Assembly: GCF_026151205.1 (NCBI RefSeq)
Contig: NC_087079.1
Location: 8,486,635-8,546,634, forward strand
DNA: 60,000 nucleotides
DNA from: Bolinopsis microptera
Taxonomy: Eukaryota > Ctenophora > Tentaculata > Lobata > Bolinopsidae
Reading direction: 5' to 3'
The position numbers were made by a program, and so were the translations under genes. This document shows positions 7,601-48,524 of this stretch, piece after piece. Each line of letters begins with the position of its first letter. The stretch's first letter is position 1. The notes beneath the pieces are model-generated. The model did no database searches, had not been told where the DNA came from, and was given only the letters and a program-made list of their open reading frames with translations.

Positions 7601-10600
7601 AGTTTTAAACGTTGCTATGATCACCATAGCAAGATAATGAAAACAGTGCACGTTACCAATTGAAGCACCATTAATCAGGTTTAAACTTTGATAATTTATT
7701 CACATGCATCCAATTACAGAGATCAGATATTGACAGAATGGAGGCGAGATATTTTGAGTCAAATAGTCAGGGTCTAATCAACGATCTACGGAATGAGTTA
7801 CATATCTTAAGAGATCGAGAAAGAATGCTTCTTTCCACCATTACAAGTAAGTTTCTAACTGTCCTGGAAATCATTTAGCGAATATGATACTTGGTCGTCT
7901 AACAAATCATTCCGTCACAAACCGTTAAAAGTTTCTCATTATAGTTAATAGCAAATTACTCGTAAACACTCCATTTAATGACAGATAATAATTATTGTTG
8001 AAAGGTTGAAAAGTTATTTGAACAAATTCAAACTTTCCAGGTTTAAAATCAGATTTATCACGTGAGAATGACGAAAAACTAACTGCAATGTACATTGAAC
8101 TACGAACTCTCTTCAAAGATCTGTGCGTTCTAAAGCGATTCTCTTCATCACAGGTGTCTGATAAAATACAATTGAATTCTAAACTGATAACTTTCAAATA
8201 TTTGTAAAATGAGTAAAACTAAGTTACTGAGCCGGTTTATTTTCTAAACATGCACTAGTCCTGCACTAGAATTGCACTATAATCAGCTGACCTATAAAAC
8301 CCAGAAACTGTCCGACGAATCAGAGGAGACTGATGAAAGTTGGCTGCTTGCCCAACACATAAACACGGACAAGGTTGTAGCCCTGCTCAAACAACAAGTT
8401 GCCCAAGTTAAAAGCACCATAAACAGCATCCTCATGTCCCAAGTCTTAGATTCGGGACTTATCAAAACGGAGCACGATTTGGAGAGTTTCAAGGAAATTA
8501 TATTGCTGCAGAATGAAGAACAGAAATCTATCAGCGAGGTAAGATATTTGCGGGATGCGGTGGAGAATGTACAGTTATAATTACAGTCAGCGTATGTTTC
8601 GTTAAATTTGAATGTGATCACGTATAATACATTAAAATAAATGTTAATACATGAAAATTGATTTAATTTTAGATACAGAATTTTTAAAAGTCGCTTTAGA
8701 AATGGATGTTGGTCAAGAATTCCAATTCATATTCTCTTGGTCTATTTACTCTGAACCAAACAAATTATCATTAAAAGCACTATTACTAAAGTATTCATCT
8801 TCACTCAGAACCTCGATAATCCACGCCACCCGCAAAATAGTATATTTCATAAATATTTTCGTTACAAAACGTTGCCCATCGTTATCCTCGACAGAGCTAT
8901 TGTCGATAGTAAGACGGTTATTTCCAGCAGCAGTTCTGTAAATGTTATTTTCAGTGGGCGAGAGTAAAAAATCATTTCCATCAATCACCCGATACCAATT
9001 TGTAGGGAAGTTCTTCGGGTTAGCCACTATCAGTTCAATTGGTCTTCCCTCAACCACTCTCACTTCTTTTTTTAAGTGTGACACCACCATGCCGTTTTCT
9101 TCGATAAAGTCCGTGACTTCAACCACGATATTTTCTGGCTCGGCGCTTCTTTTGCGCCATCTTTTCGGCCTGCACCGTATTTTTTTGTGTTCATTTGGGC
9201 AATAAAGACCTTTGCTATTTGGAGGCATCTCGATATATCTGGATTTAATTCTATAACCGTTTTTACAGTCTGACCATCCACTCCACGGACCCACTATGCA
9301 ATCAGGGTTCCATCTCCACATCTTCTTAGTTTTCCCCTCAGTATCATTTGTTGAACTATTAGTTGAATTATCAGTTGAATTATCAGTTGAACCCTCAGTT
9401 GAACCCTCAGTTGAACCCTCAGTTGAACCCTCAGTTGAATCCTCAGTTGAACCCTCAGTTGAACCATCAGTTGGACCCTCAGTTGAACCCTCAGTTGAAC
9501 CCTCAGTTGAACCCTCAGTTGAACCCTCAGTTGATTTACCAGTTGAACTTTCAGTTAATGTTTGAGTGCTACACCCATACCAACGTTTCAGAGATTCATA
9601 ATCCTGCTCATCTAACAAATAATGTCCATAATCTTTGAGCTTAACTGTACTATTCAAAGCGCGAAGGCTTGGCACACTTTCTTTTACATTAAAAGCATAT
9701 GCAGGATAGTGCATGGCACTTTTGTAGTCATACTCCCCGTCGGAAGGGCTAACATCTCCTACTTTTCTGTAGAAACTGTGAGCTGCTGCTTTATCGATGT
9801 TGTCCCAGTTAATCTCCACGAAGTTATCCCGATCTGGCCTATTCTGGGTGTGTATTGCTCCTAACACATGAAACACTTCATGCATTGCCAGTCCGTAGTT
9901 ACAGTATTCACCTATATTTACCATGGCTTGAATACCGGGCATGAAGCCTAATGTATCTGAGGAACACTGTGCTATATTGTGGCTTGTGTGGATTATAAAT
10001 TGTTCTGAGTTTTCATCAGCGGGAACGAACTTGACGCATGGGACCCTATCACCAATTTCTTTGAACGCTTTTAACAGTAAGGATTTTGGTTCGGAGTGCA
10101 TTCTATGATCAAATACATAGGTATATAGTCCGTCTGGCCAAAGATGACTTTTCCCTCCAATATTGAAAAATGCTCGTCTATGTCTCACAATTTTTGGGGG
10201 CTTTTCAACAATTATTTCCATTAGATCATCTTCGTCCTGTGAGTCTACCTTTCCTGCTAATGACAAATCTATTTGAGAAGCATCCATATGACAACTTGAA
10301 GACAGCTTTTCACTGTCCAAGTGTTCTGGATCTTCTAATGACCGTTTGTTAATCCTAAGACTTAATATATCACAGTTGCTGGCGCTATGTGCGTCTCTTG
10401 ACTCTACATGTTCGTCGTTGTCATCATTAGCATCTTTTGAGGTTTTCTTTGGCATTATCGTTTCATGTCCTGAAAAAGCACCTAGAGATTGACTTGTGGT
10501 ATACGAGAAACGGTGATTTAGCAACAATTGCAAATTTATCACGCAGCTTACAATTTAACAAAATATCGACCTATTCAGAGCTTTTCCTTACATAAAGTAT

Positions 10601-15548: not shown

Positions 15549-29497
<13,949 letters not shown>

Positions 29498-37342: not shown

Positions 37343-40300
37343 TCAGAACTTGAGCTCATTTGTGGCAAAATTAAGCTCACACCAATCAAGTGTATCATGC
37401 TTGAATTGCAATTCTCGTAAGGCAATTTTCAATATATTCTTAAACCCGTTTGTCGGAGTATTAAAACTCATCTTACTTGATGTTTGTCGACAGCTGTTCC
37501 ACATGTAGGATGATTGGTAGATGAATTGTGAGGATGGTTGTGATGTAATGAAATAATCCTCTCGTCGTGGTGACCTGTTAAATGATGAGTACAGTGATAA
37601 TGGTTCCTCTAACTTATTAATTTTGAATAGTTCTAAGAGACAAGTGTACTTGTACAGATTGTGGACCGTCAACAACCTGTGGGTTTTAAACAAGGGCTTG
37701 GAGTGTTCTTTTTGGTAAAAGTCCACCCCCAGTCTTTGCTTATCAACAGGTCGTGTTCGGGCACACGTTTTAAACTTCTCTAGGTAAGCTTCTCTATCCC
37801 CAAACAGAATTCTTATACACTTTTTCTGTGTTTTAAAGATAGGTTCAAGTCGGTTATTGCTAATACCACCCCACACAGATATTCCAAATCCTAAATGTGA
37901 TTCAAATAGAGTATGATATAAATCCTTATAATACTGCTTTGGGACAATGTGTCGTATTCTGCACAGCTTTCCTACTTCGCATTTAAGTTTTGAGTTAAGT
38001 GACTGCGTATGTGATTTCCAGTTAAGTTGGTCGTCAATAATAACGCCTAGAAATTTAGCTTCTTGAACTCTTTTAATAACTACATTATTTAAAGTTAGTA
38101 TGTTCTCGTCATTTTCTACTTCCTCTTTGGCCCGTGAGGGTTTAAAATGAATAAAACAACATTTCTTAATGTTAATATGTAATAAGTTTAGTTTCATATA
38201 CTTGTACACAAACGATAGAACTTCATTTCCTTTTTCGTATAGTCTTTTGACACATGTGTCTTCTATAAATATGTTAGTGTCGTCGGCAAATAGTATAAAC
38301 TTTCCTATAATTGATGAGTTACGGATGTCATTAATATAAATAATAAAAAGTAAGGGACCAAGACAGCTCCCCTGCGGCACTCCATAGACTACTGGAAGTT
38401 TCTCGGATTCTTCACCTAATACCGAGACATACTGGTATCTGTTCGACAGGTAACTTGCTATAAGGTTATTTGCATTTCCACGGATTCCATAATTTTCTAA
38501 CTTATGCAGTAACTTTTCATGTGATATTGTATCAAAGGCTTTACTAAGATCAATAAATATTCCAAGAACGTGTTGTTTTTTCTTGAGGCAAGATTCTACG
38601 TGGTTCACTGAGTAATTTAGGGCATAACTGGTCGAGTGATTTTTACGGAATCCGTACTGGTTTTCATATAAGGAGTTCTGTGAATGAAAGAAGCTGTATA
38701 ATCTATTGAATATAATCTTTTCAAATATTTTACCAAACACAGCTAGCGTTGATACAGGTCTATAGTTTTCAAGGAGTTCCTGGTTATCTTTCTTGTAAAT
38801 GGGACTAATCCTTCCAACTTTAAGGTCATCTGGAAATATGCCATCTTTCATACATTCGTTATACAGTACAGTGAGTAAAGGAGTAACTATTTTAGAGGAC
38901 TGCTTAATTACATGAATCGGTATGTCACTTGCCTTGCCATTTTTAAGTTCAGATATGATTTTGCTAACCTCGTCTGTTGTGCAGTCATGCATGTAAATGC
39001 TGGAAGTGTTTGAAAGCGGTAGATAATCATAGAAACTAGGTATACTGTTTATGTTAATTTGTCCAAGATCATTGTAAGCGGTATTTAGGTCAGAGGCTAA
39101 TGATACAAAATATTTATTGAATTCGTTTGCTATGATCCTTCTATTTGTTATCTTAACGTTGTCTATGGTGAACAGCGGCTTTATTTCACGCCGCCGTTTA
39201 CCTCTTATACGATTTATTAGTTCCCAGGTCTTTTTACTATCACCGCTATTTTCAGCAAATTTACCAGAGAAGTATTCTGTTTTCACAGTTTGACGTGTTT
39301 TCTTTAGGACTTTTCTGTATTCTTTGTAGATAAGGTAGCGACTACGTTTTAGTGAGCATTCAGGGCACTGGCAAATGCCGCCCTTGTTATCAGTTTCCCC
39401 GAGTTTACATTTTCTATTTCTTATCTCAACCCAATTTTCGTACAGTTTATGCTGATTATTAATTGAGCAAATGAGACCGGGAGTTATCCAAGGGTTAACC
39501 TGAACAGTTCTCTTAGAGGTTTTCGGGGTCTCTAATTTAAACGATTTTTCGACGCAGTTTTTGTAAGTGTCATGGAATTCAGTAAAGTTATGGATTGTTT
39601 TAGTTTTAAGCTCATCTTCAAGATCCACTAGGAAGCCGTTAACATTTGATTGACAGAAGTCGTAATACTGTTTAAAAGAAGTTTTTTCAGAGTTGACTTC
39701 AACATTCCAGTTAAATGTGTTAAAAATAGGTGAGTGATGAGTTATTCGTTCTTTTAGGGTGCCTGAAGTAATCACATTCTCAATATCGTTAGTAATAATG
39801 TTATCTATGCAGGATGCTTTACAGCCTGGTTTTTCGTGGGTAACAATAGATATTAACGGACAAAATCCTTTACTGAATAATATTTCTTCATATTTTTGAA
39901 CATTTTTGTTATCTTTATCATGAAGATCGATATTAAAGTCTCCAGCTAGATAACTAAACTTCGGCATGTGATCAAGAAGGTTAGAAAGTTCAACTAGAGC
40001 TTGGGAAATACAGCCACTTGGTGGACGATACAAAACACCTACATTAACAGGTTGATCTTCGTTACTTAATGATAAGACAAGTATTTCTAGATGTTCTGTG
40101 ACTTGTGATATATTCTCAATTACAGTAGCATTTAATTTATCGTCAACATAAAGGGCTACTCCAGTGCCCTTTTGTTTGTTAGGTGCTGTGTCCTGATAGT
40201 AACTATTATAACCGTCGAGCTGAAATAGATTGCTTAATTCTTTTCCAGTGTTGGTTTCAGCTAGGGCTATTACGGAGAATTTTGTTTTGTACCTACAGGT

Positions 40301-40696
40301 TTCAATGGCAAGGTTGTCAAAATTTGATTTATTTCCATCAATATTTTGAAAGAGAATAGATGATTGTTTCTTTACTTGGTTGCAGAGAATATTTGTAAGG
40401 TCAGATGCAGTGTATGAGTTACAATCATTTAAAGTATTTGAGATTTTGGTTGTGTATTCGTCTAGGTTGTTGTCGTCGTCGTCATTGTCAGTGAGTAGTT
40501 TAAATGGGTTGTATTTAACCTTGTCTAAATGGATACAACGAGTACAGTAAAACTCATTAGATTGGCTATTTGGATTTGATTTGCGATAGCATTTATGGTG
40601 CATTATGCAGTCACAGTGAAAACATTCAACTATTGTTTGGCCGATGACTATGTTCTTAGAACAGACAGGACATACCTCCTTAATGAGGGGAGTCAT
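37343..40696 (-). CDS. LINE A ORF2: PHD-like finger, endonuclease, reverse transcriptase
   Basis: 1117 residues. A PHD-like Cys/His finger (CPVCSKNIVIGQTIVECFHC to FYCTRC, residues 9-55) opens the protein. The APE-type endonuclease follows ([43 protein letters not shown]); the usual Ser-Asp-His motif reads THH. RT blocks: [37 protein letters not shown] (A), [13 protein letters not shown] (B), [12 protein letters not shown] (C) and KFLGVIIDD. This fits the CR1/L2 superclade. The ATG overlaps the ORF1 stop as ATGA (40693-40696), which suggests termination-reinitiation. No internal stops. LINE B at 45123-48524 is a clear relative. Confidence 0.9.
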   Translation of the reverse strand: MTPLIKEVCPVCSKNIVIGQTIVECFHCDCIMHHKCYRKSNPNSQSNEFYCTRCIHLDKVKYNPFKLLTDNDDDDNNLDEYTTKISNTLNDCNSYTASDLTNILCNQVKKQSSILFQNIDGNKSNFDNLAIETCRYKTKFSVIALAETNTGKELSNLFQLDGYNSYYQDTAPNKQKGTGVALYVDDKLNATVIENISQVTEHLEILVLSLSNEDQPVNVGVLYRPPSGCISQALVELSNLLDHMPKFSYLAGDFNIDLHDKDNKNVQKYEEILFSKGFCPLISIVTHEKPGCKASCIDNIITNDIENVITSGTLKERITHHSPIFNTFNWNVEVNSEKTSFKQYYDFCQSNVNGFLVDLEDELKTKTIHNFTEFHDTYKNCVEKSFKLETPKTSKRTVQVNPWITPGLICSINNQHKLYENWVEIRNRKCKLGETDNKGGICQCPECSLKRSRYLIYKEYRKVLKKTRQTVKTEYFSGKFAENSGDSKKTWELINRIRGKRRREIKPLFTIDNVKITNRRIIANEFNKYFVSLASDLNTAYNDLGQININSIPSFYDYLPLSNTSSIYMHDCTTDEVSKIISELKNGKASDIPIHVIKQSSKIVTPLLTVLYNECMKDGIFPDDLKVGRISPIYKKDNQELLENYRPVSTLAVFGKIFEKIIFNRLYSFFHSQNSLYENQYGFRKNHSTSYALNYSVNHVESCLKKKQHVLGIFIDLSKAFDTISHEKLLHKLENYGIRGNANNLIASYLSNRYQYVSVLGEESEKLPVVYGVPQGSCLGPLLFIIYINDIRNSSIIGKFILFADDTNIFIEDTCVKRLYEKGNEVLSFVYKYMKLNLLHINIKKCCFIHFKPSRAKEEVENDENILTLNNVVIKRVQEAKFLGVIIDDQLNWKSHTQSLNSKLKCEVGKLCRIRHIVPKQYYKDLYHTLFESHLGFGISVWGGISNNRLEPIFKTQKKCIRILFGDREAYLEKFKTCARTRPVDKQRLGVDFYQKEHSKPLFKTHRLLTVHNLYKYTCLLELFKINKLEEPLSLYSSFNRSPRREDYFITSQPSSQFIYQSSYMWNSCRQTSSKMSFNTPTNGFKNILKIALRELQFKHDTLDWCELNFATNELKF

Positions 40697-42810
40697 GGTT
40701 GGTAACCATCCACGTGACCCTGACTAGCAGCAGCAGGAACAACAGGACCAGTTTCTCTTCCAGCAGTCGCATCCCTGTAGGATCTATCGTCTACCCTTGT
40801 GGACCTCCTCTTCCTTTTGTCGATACCACCGTTAATCCTGAGAAGAACAGTGTTACGAATAAATTGACCTAACTTTGCTAGTCCCCTCCAGTTGAGGTGA
40901 AGGAAGTCCGGTTTTTGGTATTTGTTGAGGTCGCGAGAGAGAGAGCGGTCAAGGAGACCATCCCTATCACAGAACTCATCAAATCCATCCACATAACTGA
41001 CACCAAAATTGGACGGGAGCAGCCTACATCGAATCAAACTGTTAAAGTATATAAGCTTTCTATTTAAATCAGCACGTTTAGAAGGAATTGTTGGACAAAC
41101 ATATACATGCACACCCGGATTAATAGATTGAATCTGGGCAATTTTTGAAACTAGATGGTTGTAGATTATATCAATATCGTTTTGGCTTTTTACATCTGTT
41201 TGTTTCAGGTCATTAACCCCACACAATATAACACAGTTTCTATAGCCACAGGACACATAAGGATCAATGCTATCGACAGTTGGGGCAAAGAATCGTTTTC
41301 CAGGAAGCCATTTGCCGAATGACTTGGCAGGATCAGAACCGAATTTCAGTCCGCCGGTGTTCGAGTCCCCAATGATACATGTAGCGTTTCTATTCAGGGA
41401 ACTGACTGATCTCAATGTTATACTGTAGCGCAGCCCAGTTATCTCGCCTGCATCGATACGATGGTGGAACAGTGCTTGGCTACGACGAGTCATTACATAT
41501 AATGATCCTGGGCCACATAGTTGCTTGTGCTCATCAATACCTGTACTAGCATCAGAGAAAGAAACATGACATGCAGTACCAAGAGAGACTGTAAAGATAC
41601 TTGATTCCGGGTGGATAGAAGGCTCGTTATCAGAGTGTCTAGGCAAGGTGCTGCTTGTGCCGTCAAACCGATTCACCAAACAGCTGTTAACCTGAGGTTG
41701 GTCACCTGAACAAAACTCACTGTTGATTCTGTCGATGAGTTTTCTCAAGGGTGGTGGTATTGCCTTTGGTGTCTTGGACGACTTAGATCCAGGATAATCG
41801 TACCGTTCCCCATATGATAGGCAGGAGCGTTCGTTTTCAATTTTGAAGTCTGTGCTGCTCAAATCAAATAGGTCAACTAGTTCTTCCGCAGTCTTCTGAT
41901 CTATAAAATCGTTTTTGAACAGTTCCACAGGTTTCTGCTCATGATGAGGTGGCTGCAAAAGGACAGGTGGTGCTGGAGGACGAGGATGCTGTGCAGGAGG
42001 TAGGTTGGGAGGAATGCAAGGACCAGGGTTATGCAATGGCTGTATAGAACTTATAGACTGTTTTAGTTCAGCAATGCCTGCAGCTACAGTGGGCTCATTT
42101 GCAGAAAGTGCGGTGAGTTGTTCTGAGATGCTCTTCAGAAACTGCTCAGATGAGTCTGTAGATGGGGATGATTCAGGGGAAGGTCTAGATGCTAAAAGTT
42201 TAAGGTCCCTCTGTAGTTCAGCAATGTTGGTATTTATTGATTCTAATGATTTGTCATGGAGCTTTATTTCATTATTTAGGCCATTAAGGGAGTTCTCTTT
42301 AAGAAGCAGGTGTTGAAGGTGAACGTCGAACTGGGAGAGAGTGTCAAGGTTCCTAGAGAACTGTTCGAAGTCAAATTTTTCAAGAGCTGAGCCTGCTGAG
42401 CTTGCTGATGCCACAAGTGCACTGACAGCTTCAAAATCTGAGTTGGCCTGTTGCAAAGCCCTTGTGTTCCTGCAGCTGTAACAAAATTCGTCTCTCTGTT
42501 TCTTCAGTGTTGATACTGGTGCCACGAAGCAGTATGGGCACAGCCATTCTACCATGGAGTTGATAGCTGACCTCGTTATACCTTTCATAGACAGGCAGTC
42601 CACATGCCACTCTTGATGACACTTAGAACAGTCAATGAGGTAAACTTTACCGTTAAAAGAGCGTTGACATGGACATTTCTTCTTGTCCCTATGTTTCCTG
42701 TTTACCTGATCTTCATTGTCCACTGTAGATTCGGCTAAAATGTTGCGAGACAAGCTATTAGATGTTTTAGGAGTACCTGAAGCCTTCCTAGAATTTGACG
42801 CCATTTTCAA
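40693..42810 (-). CDS. LINE A ORF1: PHD-like finger, coiled coil, AlkB-like dioxygenase, SGNH esterase
   Basis: 705 residues. A PHD-like finger (CPCQRSFNGKVYLIDCSKCH to LCPYC, about 46-113) is followed by a coiled-coil region (140-255) and a Pro-rich linker (258-292). Residues about 298-470 match AlkB-type 2-oxoglutarate/Fe(II) oxygenases: NSCLVNRFDG, HSD at 392-394 (iron His and Asp), distal His449/450 in ALFHHRI, and LRYSITLRSV with Arg461 and Arg467 (2OG site, compare RxSxTFR). Residues 476-655 match an SGNH esterase: GDSN (Ser483), GVND (Asn533), DFLHLN (Asp635, His638). PHD and esterase domains are known in CR1-type ORF1 proteins; the AlkB insert is the odd part. It is translated before ORF2, with the stop and start overlapping. 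Confidence 0.88.
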   Translation of the reverse strand: MKMASNSRKASGTPKTSNSLSRNILAESTVDNEDQVNRKHRDKKKCPCQRSFNGKVYLIDCSKCHQEWHVDCLSMKGITRSAINSMVEWLCPYCFVAPVSTLKKQRDEFCYSCRNTRALQQANSDFEAVSALVASASSAGSALEKFDFEQFSRNLDTLSQFDVHLQHLLLKENSLNGLNNEIKLHDKSLESINTNIAELQRDLKLLASRPSPESSPSTDSSEQFLKSISEQLTALSANEPTVAAGIAELKQSISSIQPLHNPGPCIPPNLPPAQHPRPPAPPVLLQPPHHEQKPVELFKNDFIDQKTAEELVDLFDLSSTDFKIENERSCLSYGERYDYPGSKSSKTPKAIPPPLRKLIDRINSEFCSGDQPQVNSCLVNRFDGTSSTLPRHSDNEPSIHPESSIFTVSLGTACHVSFSDASTGIDEHKQLCGPGSLYVMTRRSQALFHHRIDAGEITGLRYSITLRSVSSLNRNATCIIGDSNTGGLKFGSDPAKSFGKWLPGKRFFAPTVDSIDPYVSCGYRNCVILCGVNDLKQTDVKSQNDIDIIYNHLVSKIAQIQSINPGVHVYVCPTIPSKRADLNRKLIYFNSLIRCRLLPSNFGVSYVDGFDEFCDRDGLLDRSLSRDLNKYQKPDFLHLNWRGLAKLGQFIRNTVLLRINGGIDKRKRRSTRVDDRSYRDATAGRETGPVVPAAASQGHVDGYQP

Positions 42811-43113
42811 ATCAAATGTAAGTAATACTGACCAAATAGATCCGACTTGGGGTCGGCTCCCGTTAAGTGTTTTGTTTTGGAGGAGATTAGGACTTCAGAG
42901 TTGATGACCCTAGTAAAGTGTAGATGACCCTAATAGAGTGTAGAATGTAGATGACCCTTAGCTTAGTACGCCCCTTCGGGGGAGTTGTAACATACCATTC
43001 CTGAACACTCAAATTATTTGTTATATAGTAGTGTTGAAAGTATTAAAACAAAGAAAGCGCCACACATAGCTGAATAGGCGCGCGTCCACCGGCTGCCCCC
43101 GCCTCTACTGATA
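42811..43113. promoter_or_regulatory. Spacer between head-to-head LINEs A and B (5' UTRs, promoter candidates)
   Basis: Both LINEs start from this 303-bp stretch and read away from each other. It contains three copies of GATGACCCT (about 42904-42958), a C/G-rich patch at 42970, one copy of the 38-bp shared motif (minus sense, 43008-43046) and CGCGCGTCC at 43079. I saw no TATA box that settles a start. Internal promoters are usual in LINE 5' UTRs. Confidence 0.5.
43008..43046 (-). repeat. 38-bp shared motif, copy 2
   Basis: Identical over its core to the copy at 26278-26316. In minus sense it lies 198 bp upstream of the LINE A ORF1 ATG. Sequences on both sides differ from the other copies. 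Confidence 0.9.
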
Positions 43114-45117
43114 ATGGTTAATAAGCAAACAGAAAACAACAAGAAGAAGCTCAGCCTGAATAGCCCGAAGTTCAAGACGCCTGAAATCCGGAGTCCAATG
43201 TACGGCAAATCCCAGGGTAGCACCACACGGAGTAGATCCAGGAGTGAAGGTGACCAGAAGAATGTTAACTCAACATTAGCTACCACACCGACAAGTTCAG
43301 AGAACCGAAGCCTTCTGCAAGTATCCCTTCTCAACCGCACGGGAGTATCACCAGGAATATCACCACTAGCAACCCCCTTCTCAGATACTGAAGCAGAGAC
43401 CTCAGCCTCAGACAGCAACAGTGCATCACCGAAACCCAAGCCCAAGAAGAGCAAATGCCCCTGCAAGGCAACTTCAGGCGGGAAGTCTTGGCTCTTGACA
43501 TGTTCGCGCTGTAACCAAGTCTGGCATTCTGCTTGTGCAAACCTTAAGGGCAGTGAACTAGCTGGCCAGAAAGCCATTGATGAAATACTTAAGAGTTGGG
43601 AATGCCCTTGGTGCTACACATGCCCTCATCCCTGCCCAAAAACACATAAGTCTGCCAAACTTGCATTAAAACTGGAGTCTTTATCAGAAGCAAATCAGGT
43701 GTCAGCATCAGTTATTGAATCTCTTGACGGCATGCTTAAGGCAAGATTTGCAGAAATCACCCAACCATCCAACAATCTGATTGATAGTATCCAGAAACAA
43801 CTCAGCTCCCTGTCAGATCAGGTAAAGTCCATGCAGATCCCTCAGGCACCACCCCCACCACCCTCTGATATGCCCTCCACGTATGGACAGCAGCATCATC
43901 CAAGAGCACCTCCATCAGTTCCAAGGATTGAAGTAAAGGATACCCCCCTTACTCATAATTTTAAATGCATAGAAGGGATAAAGGAAGATTTCTTAACTCC
44001 TGATGAAGAGATGGAGCTCACAGACTTTCTCAAAGCTGAGAGTTTCACTAAAGAAGGTAAGCATGCCACAATCCAGTATGGCCAACATTACCACTACATG
44101 GGTGCAAAATCGGAACCAAAGCCCATGCCCACCCTGATTGGCAACATCATGAAACGTCTTAACACTGAATTCTCCTCCACACACCCCCAGAAACAGTTCC
44201 ACTATGACCTAAACTCCTGCCTGGTTAACAGGTATGCAGATGGGAATGAAGCACTTCCTGAACATTCAGACAACGAGGGAGACATTAATCGGGTGTCATC
44301 GATATTCACAGTTTCCTTAGGCTCATGTCGAACACTTAGCTTTCGTGAAACTTCTACAGATAAGATTACGGAGATAAAATGTCAGGGTAGAAGCATGTAC
44401 CATATGACAAAAGCAAGCCAGGAGTTTTTTAAACACTCAATCAAGCCTGAAACGTCTGATGAAGTAGGAATGCGATATAGTCTAACCTTTCGCTCAATCC
44501 ACTGGTCAAATTTTAACTCCACAGTGCTTGTTGGAGATTCAAACTTTGGACAAATCAACTTTGGTACAGGTCGTGGAAAGATGGGACAAGCCACCCCTGG
44601 AGTTCGCCTCTGGGCAGCTACGGTTGAGGAGATCGATCCCTTGTCTTGTGTAGGTTACAGAAACATTGTCATCATGGAAGGAACCAACAATTTGAAAGTA
44701 GATGGAACGGATGAGAGAGAGTTGTATACCAAGTATAAGAACAAAATCGCTCAGATTAGGAAATACAACCCACGTTGTAAACTGATAATCTGTCCTGTGC
44801 TGCCAACAAGGTCGCATAAGATCAATCGAAAAGTTAATGTTTTTAACCAGTATTTGTACAACGATCTCAGTCAATCTAATCTTAAAGTTCTAATTGTTGA
44901 TAGCTTTTTGACATTTCTAGATAAAAGCACCAACCTGCTTAAGAACAGTCTAGCTAAGTCTGATGTGAATGATATTCTTCATATTAATGGCAAGGGCGTT
45001 GGTGCACTAGTCAAGTTAATTAAGAACTGTATTTTTACATCCAAGGATCATAACAAGTTAGTAGGTAGTAGATTGTACAGCAACACACTAAGAGGAGGAC
45101 CGCCAGATGCAGTCTGA
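43114..45117 (+). CDS. LINE B ORF1: PHD-like finger, AlkB-like dioxygenase, SGNH esterase
   Basis: 667 residues with the domain order of LINE A ORF1. PHD-like finger: CPCKATSGGKSWLLTCSRCN to WECPWC (115-175). Short helical region (185-240), then a Pro-rich linker. AlkB-like domain about 285-462: QYGQHYHYMG, NSCLVNRYADG, HSD at 384-386, His441 in EFFKHSI, and MRYSLTFRSI with Arg454 and Arg460. SGNH domain about 470-640: GDSN (Ser476), GTNN (523-526), DILHIN (Asp620, His623). The two proteins differ clearly outside the motifs, yet both keep the metal, 2OG and Ser-His-Asp residues, which argues for use. If active, the first domain would oxidatively demethylate a nucleic acid or peptide. Substrate unknown. 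Stop lies 5 nt before the ORF2 ATG. Confidence 0.88.
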   Translation: MVNKQTENNKKKLSLNSPKFKTPEIRSPMYGKSQGSTTRSRSRSEGDQKNVNSTLATTPTSSENRSLLQVSLLNRTGVSPGISPLATPFSDTEAETSASDSNSASPKPKPKKSKCPCKATSGGKSWLLTCSRCNQVWHSACANLKGSELAGQKAIDEILKSWECPWCYTCPHPCPKTHKSAKLALKLESLSEANQVSASVIESLDGMLKARFAEITQPSNNLIDSIQKQLSSLSDQVKSMQIPQAPPPPPSDMPSTYGQQHHPRAPPSVPRIEVKDTPLTHNFKCIEGIKEDFLTPDEEMELTDFLKAESFTKEGKHATIQYGQHYHYMGAKSEPKPMPTLIGNIMKRLNTEFSSTHPQKQFHYDLNSCLVNRYADGNEALPEHSDNEGDINRVSSIFTVSLGSCRTLSFRETSTDKITEIKCQGRSMYHMTKASQEFFKHSIKPETSDEVGMRYSLTFRSIHWSNFNSTVLVGDSNFGQINFGTGRGKMGQATPGVRLWAATVEEIDPLSCVGYRNIVIMEGTNNLKVDGTDERELYTKYKNKIAQIRKYNPRCKLIICPVLPTRSHKINRKVNVFNQYLYNDLSQSNLKVLIVDSFLTFLDKSTNLLKNSLAKSDVNDILHINGKGVGALVKLIKNCIFTSKDHNKLVGSRLYSNTLRGGPPDAV

Positions 45118-45122
45118 TATAA

Positions 45123-48100
45123 ATGTTTAAGATTAACTCAACTAAGGAGAAATGCGGATGCTGTAGCAAAAACATTAATATTGGCCAAAGATTTCTTGAG
45201 TGCCAAAGTTGCCAAAATATTATCCACAAAATTTGTTTCAAAACATCTGAATTTAAGCTGACTGATTCCATACTTCTCTGTAAAGTTTGCTCAAAAAGAG
45301 AAAACCTAATTTACAACCCGTTTAAGGACCTTTGTACCACAAATGAGGATCTCTTCAAGGATAGCGAGAATGACAAATTTTACTCCGAAAATTGGTCTGA
45401 GGCTATTGGAAGTCTTCAGACTGCCTCCTCTATCTTGGACAAATGCAGCTATTATAGATTGAAATCCTTACACCAGCACACCCCTGAAAACTCTGGCTTA
45501 AAAACTTTATTTTACAACATTGATGGTAATAAATCGAATTTCGACTTATTCCTCTCGGAACTTGCCACTCAAAAAACGAAATTTTCTATTCTAGCTTTAG
45601 CGGAAACAAATACAGATGCTGAGAACTGTGATGTTTATGCACTTGATGGATATTCACACTTTTACGGAGATAAACTCCAAGGCAAAGCTAAAGGCTCAGG
45701 CGTGTGCTTGTATATTCATGATTCCCTAAATGCAACAATTAATGACCAACTTTGCACAATCACACCAAATTTAGAAACCCTATATGTAACTATCAACCAT
45801 GGAGATAGCAAACTCAATGTTGGGGTGTTGTACAGATCTCCAAACGGAGACTCAGTCAAATTTGATGAAGAATACACACAATTAATGTCCAAATTTCCAA
45901 AAAATGCAAAAACTATAACTCTTGGAGATTTCAACTACGATTTGCTTAAAAATCAGAGTAATAAGAAACAGGTTCAGAATTTCGAGAACACTATGCTCTC
46001 TTATGGTTACTTTCCTCTTATATCTCGTCCCACTCACTCAGTAAATGTAGGCCAAAGCTCCTGCATTGACAACATTTTTACTGATGAGATTGACTTGGTA
46101 ACCCTCTCTGGAGTTATTGAAGACACTTCTTCCCATCATAAACCAATCTTTGCTTTCTTTGACATCAGTCATTTAACTTCTAGGAAAACTCCCCCTAAGC
46201 CTAAGCAATTGCAAAGCTATGATTTCTCAAACCGAAATGTTGAACTACTAACAAAAAACTTGCTATCTAAGAAATGCATACTAACAAACAATGAAAATCC
46301 AATTGAATTTGACGAATTTTTTGAAATTTTTAGCTCAGCTATTGACTCATGTTGTAAACTCGACAAACCCAAACTCACCAAACGAAATCCTATAAGTAAT
46401 CCCTGGATATCCGACAGCATAATTGAAGCAATTGAAAAGAAAGGTCAGCTGTATGATAACTGGGTGAACTCAAAAAAGCTCCCTGACTTCAAGCCAGTTG
46501 GAGATCTGAAACTCCACAAAATTTTTCGTGATTACAGACGCTGTCTTAAAAAGATAATAAAAAACCAAAAAGATACCTATAACTGTAACAAAATTCTTGA
46601 AAATTCTGATAGTTCTAAAAAGATGTGGGAAGTAATAAATGAGATAAGAGGGAAAAGGAAAAAAACCATCAAACCCCAATTTATGGTAGATGGAGTCCGT
46701 GTTGTTGAAAGACGGGTGATAGCCAACAAATTTAATGAGTATTTTGCCTCTATTGCCTCAAAAATGAATGAAAATACTCAAAATGGCCTTCTTTTAGAAC
46801 CTCTTCCCTCTTTCCTCGAATTCATGCCACCAAAAACTCTCGATTCAATTTACTTCCATGACTGTAGTGAAGATGAAATTTCTGAGATTATAGCCAACTT
46901 GAAGAGTGGGAAAGCTAGCGACTTTCCCATAAGAGTAATCAAAAAACTATCGGGTATTCTTAGCCCAACTCTTGTTGTTCAATTTAATCGCCTAATATCT
47001 CAAGGGATATTTCCGTCAGTTCTGAAGCTTGGCAAAATAACCCCAATATACAAAAAAGATAACGAAGAACTGATTGAGAACTACAGGCCTGTTTCCACAC
47101 TTCCAATTTTTGGCAAAATTTTTGAAAAGATAATATACAAACGTCTTTACAGCTTCTTGGTTAGTCAAGGAATCCTTCACGACAGTCAATTCGGATTCCG
47201 AAAGAGTCACTCAACATCACATGCACTTAACTACTCAGTTTTTCACATCCAAAAGGCCCTAAAGCAAGGTCTGCATGTTCTAGGAATTTTTATTGATCTA
47301 AGCAAGGCCTTTGACACAATAGACCACACAATTTTGCTTGAGAAACTTGAAATATATGGGATTAGAGGAGTGCCACTTAAGTTACTGGAAAGTTACTTGT
47401 CGGACAGAGAGCAGTGTGTGTTCGTCCTGGGCGAAGTATCAGACAGACTTCCTGTTCTCTATGGCGTTCCACAGGGGAGCTGCCTTGGGCCTCTCCTGTT
47501 TTTAATATACATAAATGACTTAACAAACTCTCAACTCGATAACACTAGCTATGTCCTATTTGCTGATGATACAAACATATTTGTAGTTGCCAAAACTAGA
47601 GCAGAGGCCTACAATAATGCAAATAGGGTCCTACGATCAGTCCACGAGTACACATTGGCTAATAAATTACATGTTAACGCCAAGAAAAGTTGCTACATAG
47701 AATTCAATACAGCTAAAAGAAAACTTGATGATCAATCTTTATTAATTGAAAATAGACTTTACCTCAACGGCCTACCTCTCTCAAAGGTGCAGGAAACGAA
47801 ATTCCTGGGAGTAATTGTCGACGAAGGCCTAACTTTCAATCCCTATAGAGACAAACTAGTTAGAAAACTCTCGTCCTGTTCTGGGAGGCTATACATGATT
47901 AAGGATAAAATTCCATCATCTACCCATAAGGACCTGTACCACACACTTTTTGAAAGTCACCTATCTTATGGCATTACCGTTTGGGGAGGTGCAAGTAATA
48001 ATAAACTTCAACCACTATTTGTAGCCCAGAAAAAGTGTGTTCGTATCATGTTTGGTGACAAAAAAGCATACCTTGATAAATTTATGACATGTGCTAGGAC

Positions 48101-48524
48101 TAGACCTATCAGTGAACAGAAACTTACTAGCAAATTCTTTGAGAGAGAGCACACCAAGCCAATTTTTGCCCGTCAATCACTCATGACATTGCATAATTTA
48201 TACGCGTATCACTGCTGCAATGAACTTTTTAAAGTCTTTAAATATCGAACACCAATTGCACTATTTGAACTTTTCTGTTTGTCTAAAAGACCCGGCAAAG
48301 AAACTCTTCTTATAACAACCATGCCCTCAAACAGTTTCGTTTACAAATCTAGTTGCCTTTGGAATTCATTCCGTCAGATGTTGGCACTGAACGACCTTGA
48401 AATCACTCATGGTGTATTCAAATCAAAGGTAAAAAAAGTCATTCTCTCGTCTCAGGGTAAAGGTGACAAGAATACCTGGGCCCCTTTGGCAAACTTTCTG
48501 AACTCAGGCAGCTTGAACGACTAA
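45123..48524 (+). CDS. LINE B ORF2: PHD-like finger, endonuclease, reverse transcriptase
   Basis: 1133 residues. N-terminal finger [20 protein letters not shown] to LLCKVC, as in LINE A ORF2. Endonuclease: [35 protein letters not shown] and SSHHKPIF, again with His where Asp is usual in the last motif. [39 protein letters not shown] (A), [16 protein letters not shown] (B), [10 protein letters not shown] (C) and KFLGVIVDE. The C-terminal block [20 protein letters not shown] is also found in the decayed copy at 30.2-31.2 kb. No internal stops, so the copy could be active. The 5-nt gap to ORF1 (TGA TATAA ATG) suggests reinitiation. Confidence 0.92.

Follow-up and report, generated by a model that had tools for sequence, protein, structure and literature searches.

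The window analysed here, a 60,000-nucleotide stretch of the Bolinopsis microptera genome (contig NC_087079.1, positions 8,486,635 to 8,546,634), carries two long interspersed nuclear elements (LINEs), A on the minus strand and B on the plus strand, which lie head to head. Both are recent LINEs whose first open reading frame (ORF1) encodes a protein of three joined parts: a PHD-like finger, an AlkB-family domain and an SGNH esterase. As a cassette, the AlkB-SGNH pair recurs in several LINE lineages and one Helitron lineage in this genome, and its catalytic residues are under purifying selection.

Structure of elements A and B

The ORF1 of A (40693..42804, minus strand) encodes 703 amino acids from its ATG; in the mechanical list of reading frames it runs 42810..40693 from a TTG start, the first ATG being two codons downstream. 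The product opens with a PHD-like C4HC3 finger (42526..42675, minus; PF00628, 8.6e-4), followed by a linker, an AlkB-like 2-oxoglutarate/Fe(II) dioxygenase domain placed by PF13532 and by alignments (41386..41913, minus), and an SGNH esterase domain recognised by PF13472 (5.3e-6), by motifs and by our own SGNH profile (40831..41379, minus). The ORF1 of B (43114..45117, plus; 667 amino acids) has the same order, with the PHD-like finger at 43447..43623 (PF16866, 4e-6), the AlkB-like domain at 43966..44505 and the SGNH esterase domain at 44521..45063 (PF13472, 1.3e-5; motifs and own profile), all on the plus strand. Among the ORF1 domains of both elements only AlkB passes the Pfam curated cut-off. 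The finger and the esterase that a sequence-only reading of this DNA had named are present as motifs, with the C4HC3 spacing visible in the translations and with GDSN in both proteins, GVND (A) or GTNN (B), and DFLHLN (A) or DILHIN (B), while their Pfam scores stay below the cut-offs.

Downstream lies ORF2 (A, 37343..40696, minus; B, 45123..48524, plus), in which Pfam recognises an APE-type endonuclease and a reverse transcriptase (RT) after a zinc-finger-like N-terminus. The RT is clear in both (RVT_1, 2e-36 in A and 2.2e-34 in B, over the cut-off), and the endonuclease match is just below the cut-off in both. The ATG of the A ORF2 overlaps the stop codon of its ORF1 (ATGA). The N-termini of the two ORF2 products give weak PHD, C1 and RING matches.

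Both elements have close copies. Among the matches listed for the A ORF1 (63 of 1504 candidates scored), ten are full-length, at least 99% identical and free of stop codons, the window copy included. Homology of B to other copies begins at 43084, so that 43084..43113 (plus) is the 5' end of this copy, with a slightly truncated 5' untranslated region. Three further copies (loci L002, L003 and L005) share this start and are 99.5-99.8% identical to B over the aligned stretches; they also have in common sequence further upstream, which the window copy of B does not have. L003 joins its flank at or beside the point where L002 and L005 have a pyrimidine tract with a terminal AG, resembling a splice acceptor, and element RNA might undergo splicing or trans-splicing ahead of insertion. 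A stretch of 42-43 bases at 43008-43050 of the window recurs, identical and inverted, upstream of the B copies in L003 (1391-1433) and L005 (835-876), which suggests a genomic repeat or a preferred insertion context.

Identity of the AlkB domain

The ORF1 domain belongs to the AlkB family and is most like ALKBH3 and ALKBH2. PF13532 (2OG-FeII_Oxy_2) matches A with 60 bits (4.7e-16) and B with 66.9 bits (3.7e-18) against a cut-off of 31.2; a significant AlkB match, whose absence the sequence-only reading had named as counting against it, is thus present in both. The residues which that reading had picked out, HSD, a distal His and a RYSxTxRS-type motif, followed by GDSN, GVND/GTNN and DxLH, were all found in A and B. 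HSDNE, which holds the first iron ligands and an ALKBH2/3-type Glu, stands at residue 392 of A and 384 of B, numbered from the listed start (41623..41637, minus, and 44263..44277, plus). The distal His lies in HHRI (A) or KHSI (B), and the 2-oxoglutarate motif RxSxTxR reads RYSITLR in A (41410..41430, minus) and RYSLTFR in B (44473..44493, plus).

Searched singly with phmmer, the B sequence has ALKBH2 as its top match (2.9e-5) and the A sequence matches it weakly (0.039); the AlkB of an L021-type LINE (1.6e-14) and a Helitron AlkB (1.8e-12) find ALKBH3. A nine-row profile of element AlkBs finds human ALKBH3 (1.4e-27), ALKBH2 (1.2e-22), E. coli AlkB (2.4e-13) and ALKBH8 (2e-11); no ALKBH5 or FTO chain appeared at E ≤1e-5 in this search, and ALKBH9/10 were not compared directly.

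A structure model of the B domain (43966-44523) has a predicted local distance difference test (pLDDT) score of 75.3 and a predicted template modelling (pTM) score of 0.77. Foldseek placed ALKBH2 first (3.2e-10) and structural alignment placed ALKBH3 first (Z 17.4, root-mean-square deviation 2.6 over 165 residues), in keeping with the double-stranded beta-helix of AlkB type expected from the sequence-only reading. The alignment behind the model included ten bacterial AlkB rows, whose HxD is out of register with that of B and which may steer the model, whereas a model from the A and B sequences alone was unusable (pLDDT 41.6); the fold is therefore taken as backing for the sequence evidence, not as a substitute for it. 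A chance motif match was ruled out by the Pfam, profile and fold results taken together. For A and B in particular, the at least ten near-identical stop-free copies of the A ORF1 and the purifying selection on AlkB argue likewise that the domain is not there by chance.

The acid in HxDxE, invariant in the elements, is common to the ALKBH2 and ALKBH3 sequences (HRDDE, HSDDE), and removal of methyl marks or alkyl damage, as the sequence-only reading had suggested, fits what would be an intact ALKBH3/2-like active site. The same comparisons bear on another function, in which the enzyme would erase regulatory marks, N6-methyladenosine (m6A) in RNA or its DNA counterpart 6mA, and so counter host silencing instead of repairing. 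The B model also matches FTO in structure (Z 14.6), and the AlkB of an orchid Ty3/Gypsy element demethylates m6A RNA in vitro, according to PMC9289625. Such an eraser is nevertheless rather unlikely here, as the sequence sides with ALKBH3 and ALKBH2, neither ALKBH5 nor FTO reaches the profile threshold, and HxDxE has the acid typical of ALKBH2/3. The best 50 structural matches of the B model hold no ALKBH5, which excludes nothing.

Distribution and architectures in the genome

Beyond what the sequence-only reading had proposed for A and B, the module was found genome-wide. PF13532 has at least 151 matches in the host genome (150 of 588 candidates scored), and every listed one passes the Pfam cut-off. 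In the window and the loci examined, our own AlkB profile recovered 71 open frames with AlkB. Three of them are host-like genes, one resembling ALKBH2 (L013, 3.9e-60) and two resembling ALKBH3 (L014, 2.5e-39; L015, 1.6e-27), and one is cut by the locus end, while the other 67 are uncut element AlkBs. Of these 67, 66 retain HxDxE, RxSxTxR and a suitably spaced His, the sole uncut copy without RxSxTxR being L062; the 66 comprise many near copies, with B counted twice (window and L001), and do not stand for 66 independent events. Every one of the 66 has Ser in RxSxTxR where L013-L015 have Asn, a one-letter signature that sets RxSxTxR of the element copies against RxNxTxR of the host-like ALKBH2/3 genes.

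The AlkB loci examined are LINEs, with RTs from three or more diverged lineages, and Helitrons of one lineage, mostly with an SGNH domain that is sometimes weak. The order PHD-AlkB-SGNH is given by Pfam in A, B, L019 and L026 (PHD and esterase below cut-off), and in L024 Pfam detects PHD and AlkB, the SGNH residues being conserved in a nine-row alignment. AlkB-SGNH without a PHD match, together with an ORF2 of 998 amino acids, is found in L016, L018 and L027. In L023 and L025, and by motif in L021, AlkB is N-terminal and the SGNH match is distant and weak. A degenerate AlkB fragment (2e-10) was also seen in L069 (969-1457, plus), on the opposite strand near another AlkB LINE.

These architectures bear on what the domain might act upon. 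The PHD-like finger in the ORF1 of A, B and some relatives could aim the enzyme at host RNA, chromatin-bound nucleic acid or protein, but to such host targets we give little credence, for the Helitron and some LINE AlkB proteins have no PHD match and PHD targeting is hence not general. Moreover, no RRM or CCHC match was obtained in the ORF1s scanned with Pfam, which makes AlkB the likeliest nucleic-acid binder of these proteins. The fold might accordingly serve mainly to bind single strands in place of an RRM or CCHC domain, with catalysis secondary or lost, and the esterase of ZfL2-1, which does not bind oligo-A RNA (PMC3905857), points in the same direction. We consider a mainly binding role improbable, since the iron ligands and both arginines are intact in 66 of the 67 uncut element frames across very diverged lineages.

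AlkB in a Helitron lineage

Two loci, L017 and L028, qualify as Helitrons by a Rep with an HUH motif and a PIF1-type helicase. In L017 a single frame encodes SGNH, AlkB, DUF6570, Helitron_like_N and PIF1; in L028 one frame encodes AlkB, DUF6570 and Helitron_like_N, and PIF1 follows in the next. The HUH motif (SPHLHM/SPHFHM) was read by eye in the Rep stretch. No SGNH domain was found by Pfam in L028, though upstream of its AlkB it has GTNN and DKLHLS motifs. SGNH with AlkB is also encoded by L022 and L020: the L022 locus ends before Rep, which the genome search places in a frame equal in length, and the L020 frame ends without Rep. The LINE-derived SGNH profile matches L017, L020 and L022 weakly (2e-6 to 2e-4).

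Genome-wide, Helitron_like_N has 41 matches (51 of 51 candidates scored), and at least eight of them have an AlkB 3.6-4.5 kb away on the same strand among the AlkB matches listed; in six of these the frames given for the two domains are equal in length. In the Helitron loci L074 and L075, over the 6.5 and 6.8 kb covered, our own profiles found neither AlkB nor SGNH, and the Rep part of L074 is 45% identical to that of L017. With AlkB in the L017-type loci and none in these two, AlkB is seen in one Helitron lineage only. The Helitron label used in the trees and in the selection analysis covers eight rows, of which L017, L022, L028, L064 and L065 have Rep; L020, L066 and L068 are so labelled by AlkB similarity alone.

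Selection on the AlkB domain

The ratio of nonsynonymous to synonymous substitution rates (dN/dS) was computed for 35 pairs of AlkB rows, which share rows and are not independent. It lies between 0.04 and 0.33 in the 22 informative pairs with dS ≥0.1, with the lowest values in L028-L064 (0.04) and in the L021 type (0.05-0.06) and the highest in L017-L068 (0.33). Eleven pairs have dS <0.1 and are uninformative (L051-L053, 0.72 at dS 0.02), and two are saturated. For A against its sister subfamily the AlkB dN/dS is 0.13-0.15; the direct comparison of A with B is saturated. Neutrality was rejected in all eight pairs tested (one-sided binomial p 1e-20 to 6e-4, assuming a nonsynonymous share of 0.76). 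The AlkB-SGNH fusion in a LINE ORF1, as first proposed from the letters alone, is thus upheld by profile, residues, fold and selection. A decayed passenger was considered and is ruled out by the open frames, the intact residues and dN/dS.

Relationships, origin and exchange

A 58-row AlkB tree with its root on ALKBH2 sets the elements on one side of a branch (support 93/82), adjoining ALKBH3. With a bacterial outgroup ALKBH2 and ALKBH3 come together (86/55), beside the elements (87/65); a clade of ALKBH3 and elements is not rejected with this outgroup by the approximately unbiased (AU) test (p 0.339). The Helitron AlkBs nest inside the LINE AlkBs at 96/79 in the 58-row tree, but monophyly of the LINE AlkBs is not rejected either (AU p 0.375), so that the nesting does not fix a direction from LINE to Helitron.

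A bacterial origin was rejected: the element AlkBs fall with animal ALKBH2/3, away from the six proteobacterial AlkBs compared (100/100). Searches that reach close relatives only found no relative of the element domain in viral contigs, with two element AlkBs and E. coli AlkB as queries, or in prokaryote contigs, with one element AlkB as query.

The RTs of the A/B, L018 and L021 groups are only 22-32% identical to one another, and 20-30% identical to that of another LINE of the window, which has a CCHC knuckle and no AlkB. With RTs so diverged, the AlkB-SGNH cassette is either ancient, with losses, or has been exchanged. Exchange of ORF1 between elements is observed directly. In L018 (C5:18133000-18139300) and L027 (C10:3982800-3989000) the ORF2 DNA is 96-100% identical (90% in the segment at its border) and the ORF1 DNA 51-72%, a swap of ORF1 at the ORF1/ORF2 border. 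Similarly, the ORF1s of A and L029 are 95-97% identical over the first 600 bases, 74-82% over linker, AlkB and SGNH, and 93-98% at the end.

Comparison with known systems

The closest solved relatives of the element domain by profile and by fold (Z ~17), ALKBH3 and ALKBH2, share with it HxD...H, the distal Arg pair and the acid after HxDx. They differ in that the element domain sits inside a transposon ORF1 or Helitron protein, has RxSxTxR instead of RxNxTxR, and is 19-22% identical to the human proteins in structural alignment. The ORF1s of CR1/L2-type LINEs (types III and IV) likewise encode a PHD-like finger and/or an SGNH esterase upstream of an endonuclease-RT ORF2, as described in PMC4120745 and PMC3905857. 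The ZfL2-1 esterase (4c1b) is among the matches of our SGNH profile, at E 0.0035 and last in strength of the seven listed. In A and B, however, AlkB sits between the PHD-like finger and the esterase, and neither the word AlkB nor the word dioxygenase occurs in the text of PMC4120745.

The orchid Ty3/Gypsy element mentioned above is, like A and B, a retrotransposon encoding an AlkB. It is a long terminal repeat element with a separate ORF for an ALKBH5/9-like m6A demethylase and is described in that text as occurring only in Phalaenopsis, whereas A and B have an ALKBH3-like domain fused into a LINE ORF1 with an esterase, in a module also found in Helitrons. Other selfish carriers of AlkB named in the same source are plant RNA viruses (flexi- and closteroviruses) and giant viruses; viral AlkBs also appear among the fold matches, but they reside in replicases or stand-alone proteins, not in transposons. 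Accessory enzyme cassettes common to element types, as here, have been reported for bdelloid retroelements (GDSL and DEDDy) in PMC5408684, whose text contains neither AlkB nor Helitron. PHD and esterase domains in ORF1, and the sharing of accessory ORFs between retroelements, are hence already known (PMC4120745, PMC5408684). In agreement with the sequence-only reading, which knew of no established description of the fusion, none of AlkB in LINEs or Helitrons was found in the open full-text literature among the matches listed, mostly titles and abstract starts, with supplements, Repbase and subscription papers outside this scope.

Proposed function

In AlkB enzymes acting on 1-methyladenosine (m1A) and 3-methylcytidine (m3C), the acid position of HxDxE contacts the base. 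ALKBH3 prefers single strands, m1A and m3C block reverse transcription, and Helitrons move via single-stranded DNA. Packaging of element RNA is a presumed task of ORF1 proteins (PMC3905857). The HxDxE acid, the AlkB biochemistry and this presumed packaging together favour self-repair of a single-stranded intermediate. We therefore prefer as a candidate an active ALKBH3-like demethylase whose substrate would be the single-stranded RNA or DNA of the elements themselves, a proposal whose prospects we judge to be evenly balanced.

The predicted demethylase would travel in the nucleoprotein of the element itself. Its ALKBH2/3-type site (HxDxE, RxSxTxR) predicts substrates methylated on the base-pairing face, for instance m1A and m3C, marks that block both reverse transcription of the RNA and copying of single-stranded DNA. 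Once these are cleared from LINE RNA ahead of target-primed reverse transcription, or from the single strand of a Helitron, more full-length copies may result. The esterase would serve to attach the particle to membranes or set it free there, a role put forward for ZfL2-1; chromatin would be where the PHD-like finger acts.

Several points weigh against self-repair. The residue between D and E in HxDxE varies among the elements (N, D, R, S), and the elements have Ser at a position occupied by Asn in the ALKBH2/3 sequences of the host (three) and of human (two). The published role of the orchid-element AlkB is that of an m6A eraser. Furthermore, a binding role would also select for the fold, though less obviously for every catalytic residue. 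The wider proposal, that LINE and Helitron lineages share one exchangeable AlkB-SGNH cassette whose ALKBH3-like demethylase would repair or strip methylation of the base-pairing face in their own single-stranded intermediate, a self-encoded repair step that would be new, is offered as a tentative one, with the balance somewhat against it.

Other features of the window

The other LINE used above for the RT comparison, with RT and endonuclease, occupies 21510-24116 (minus) with 24413-26275 (minus); the CCHC knuckle lies in a frame beside it, just below the Pfam cut-off, and this frame has no AlkB. A 1154-amino-acid frame at 17102-20566 (plus) encodes a very diverged RT, 21% identical to the nearest RT compared. 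An astacin metalloprotease with a spondin-like TSP1 match, probably a host gene, lies at 8746-10542 (minus).

Implications

Transposons are not usually known to carry enzymes of repair or of the epitranscriptome, and the findings in Bolinopsis microptera suggest mobile DNA armed with its own repair or mark-erasing enzyme. The poorly understood ORF1 gains a predicted enzyme activity that is assayable in the tube, and the AlkB-SGNH module points to cassette exchange across element classes. An ALKBH3-like LINE ORF1 present in many copies and shared with Helitrons would make it possible to test directly if transposition is limited by methylation of its RNA template or of single-stranded DNA, and if hosts use this in defence.

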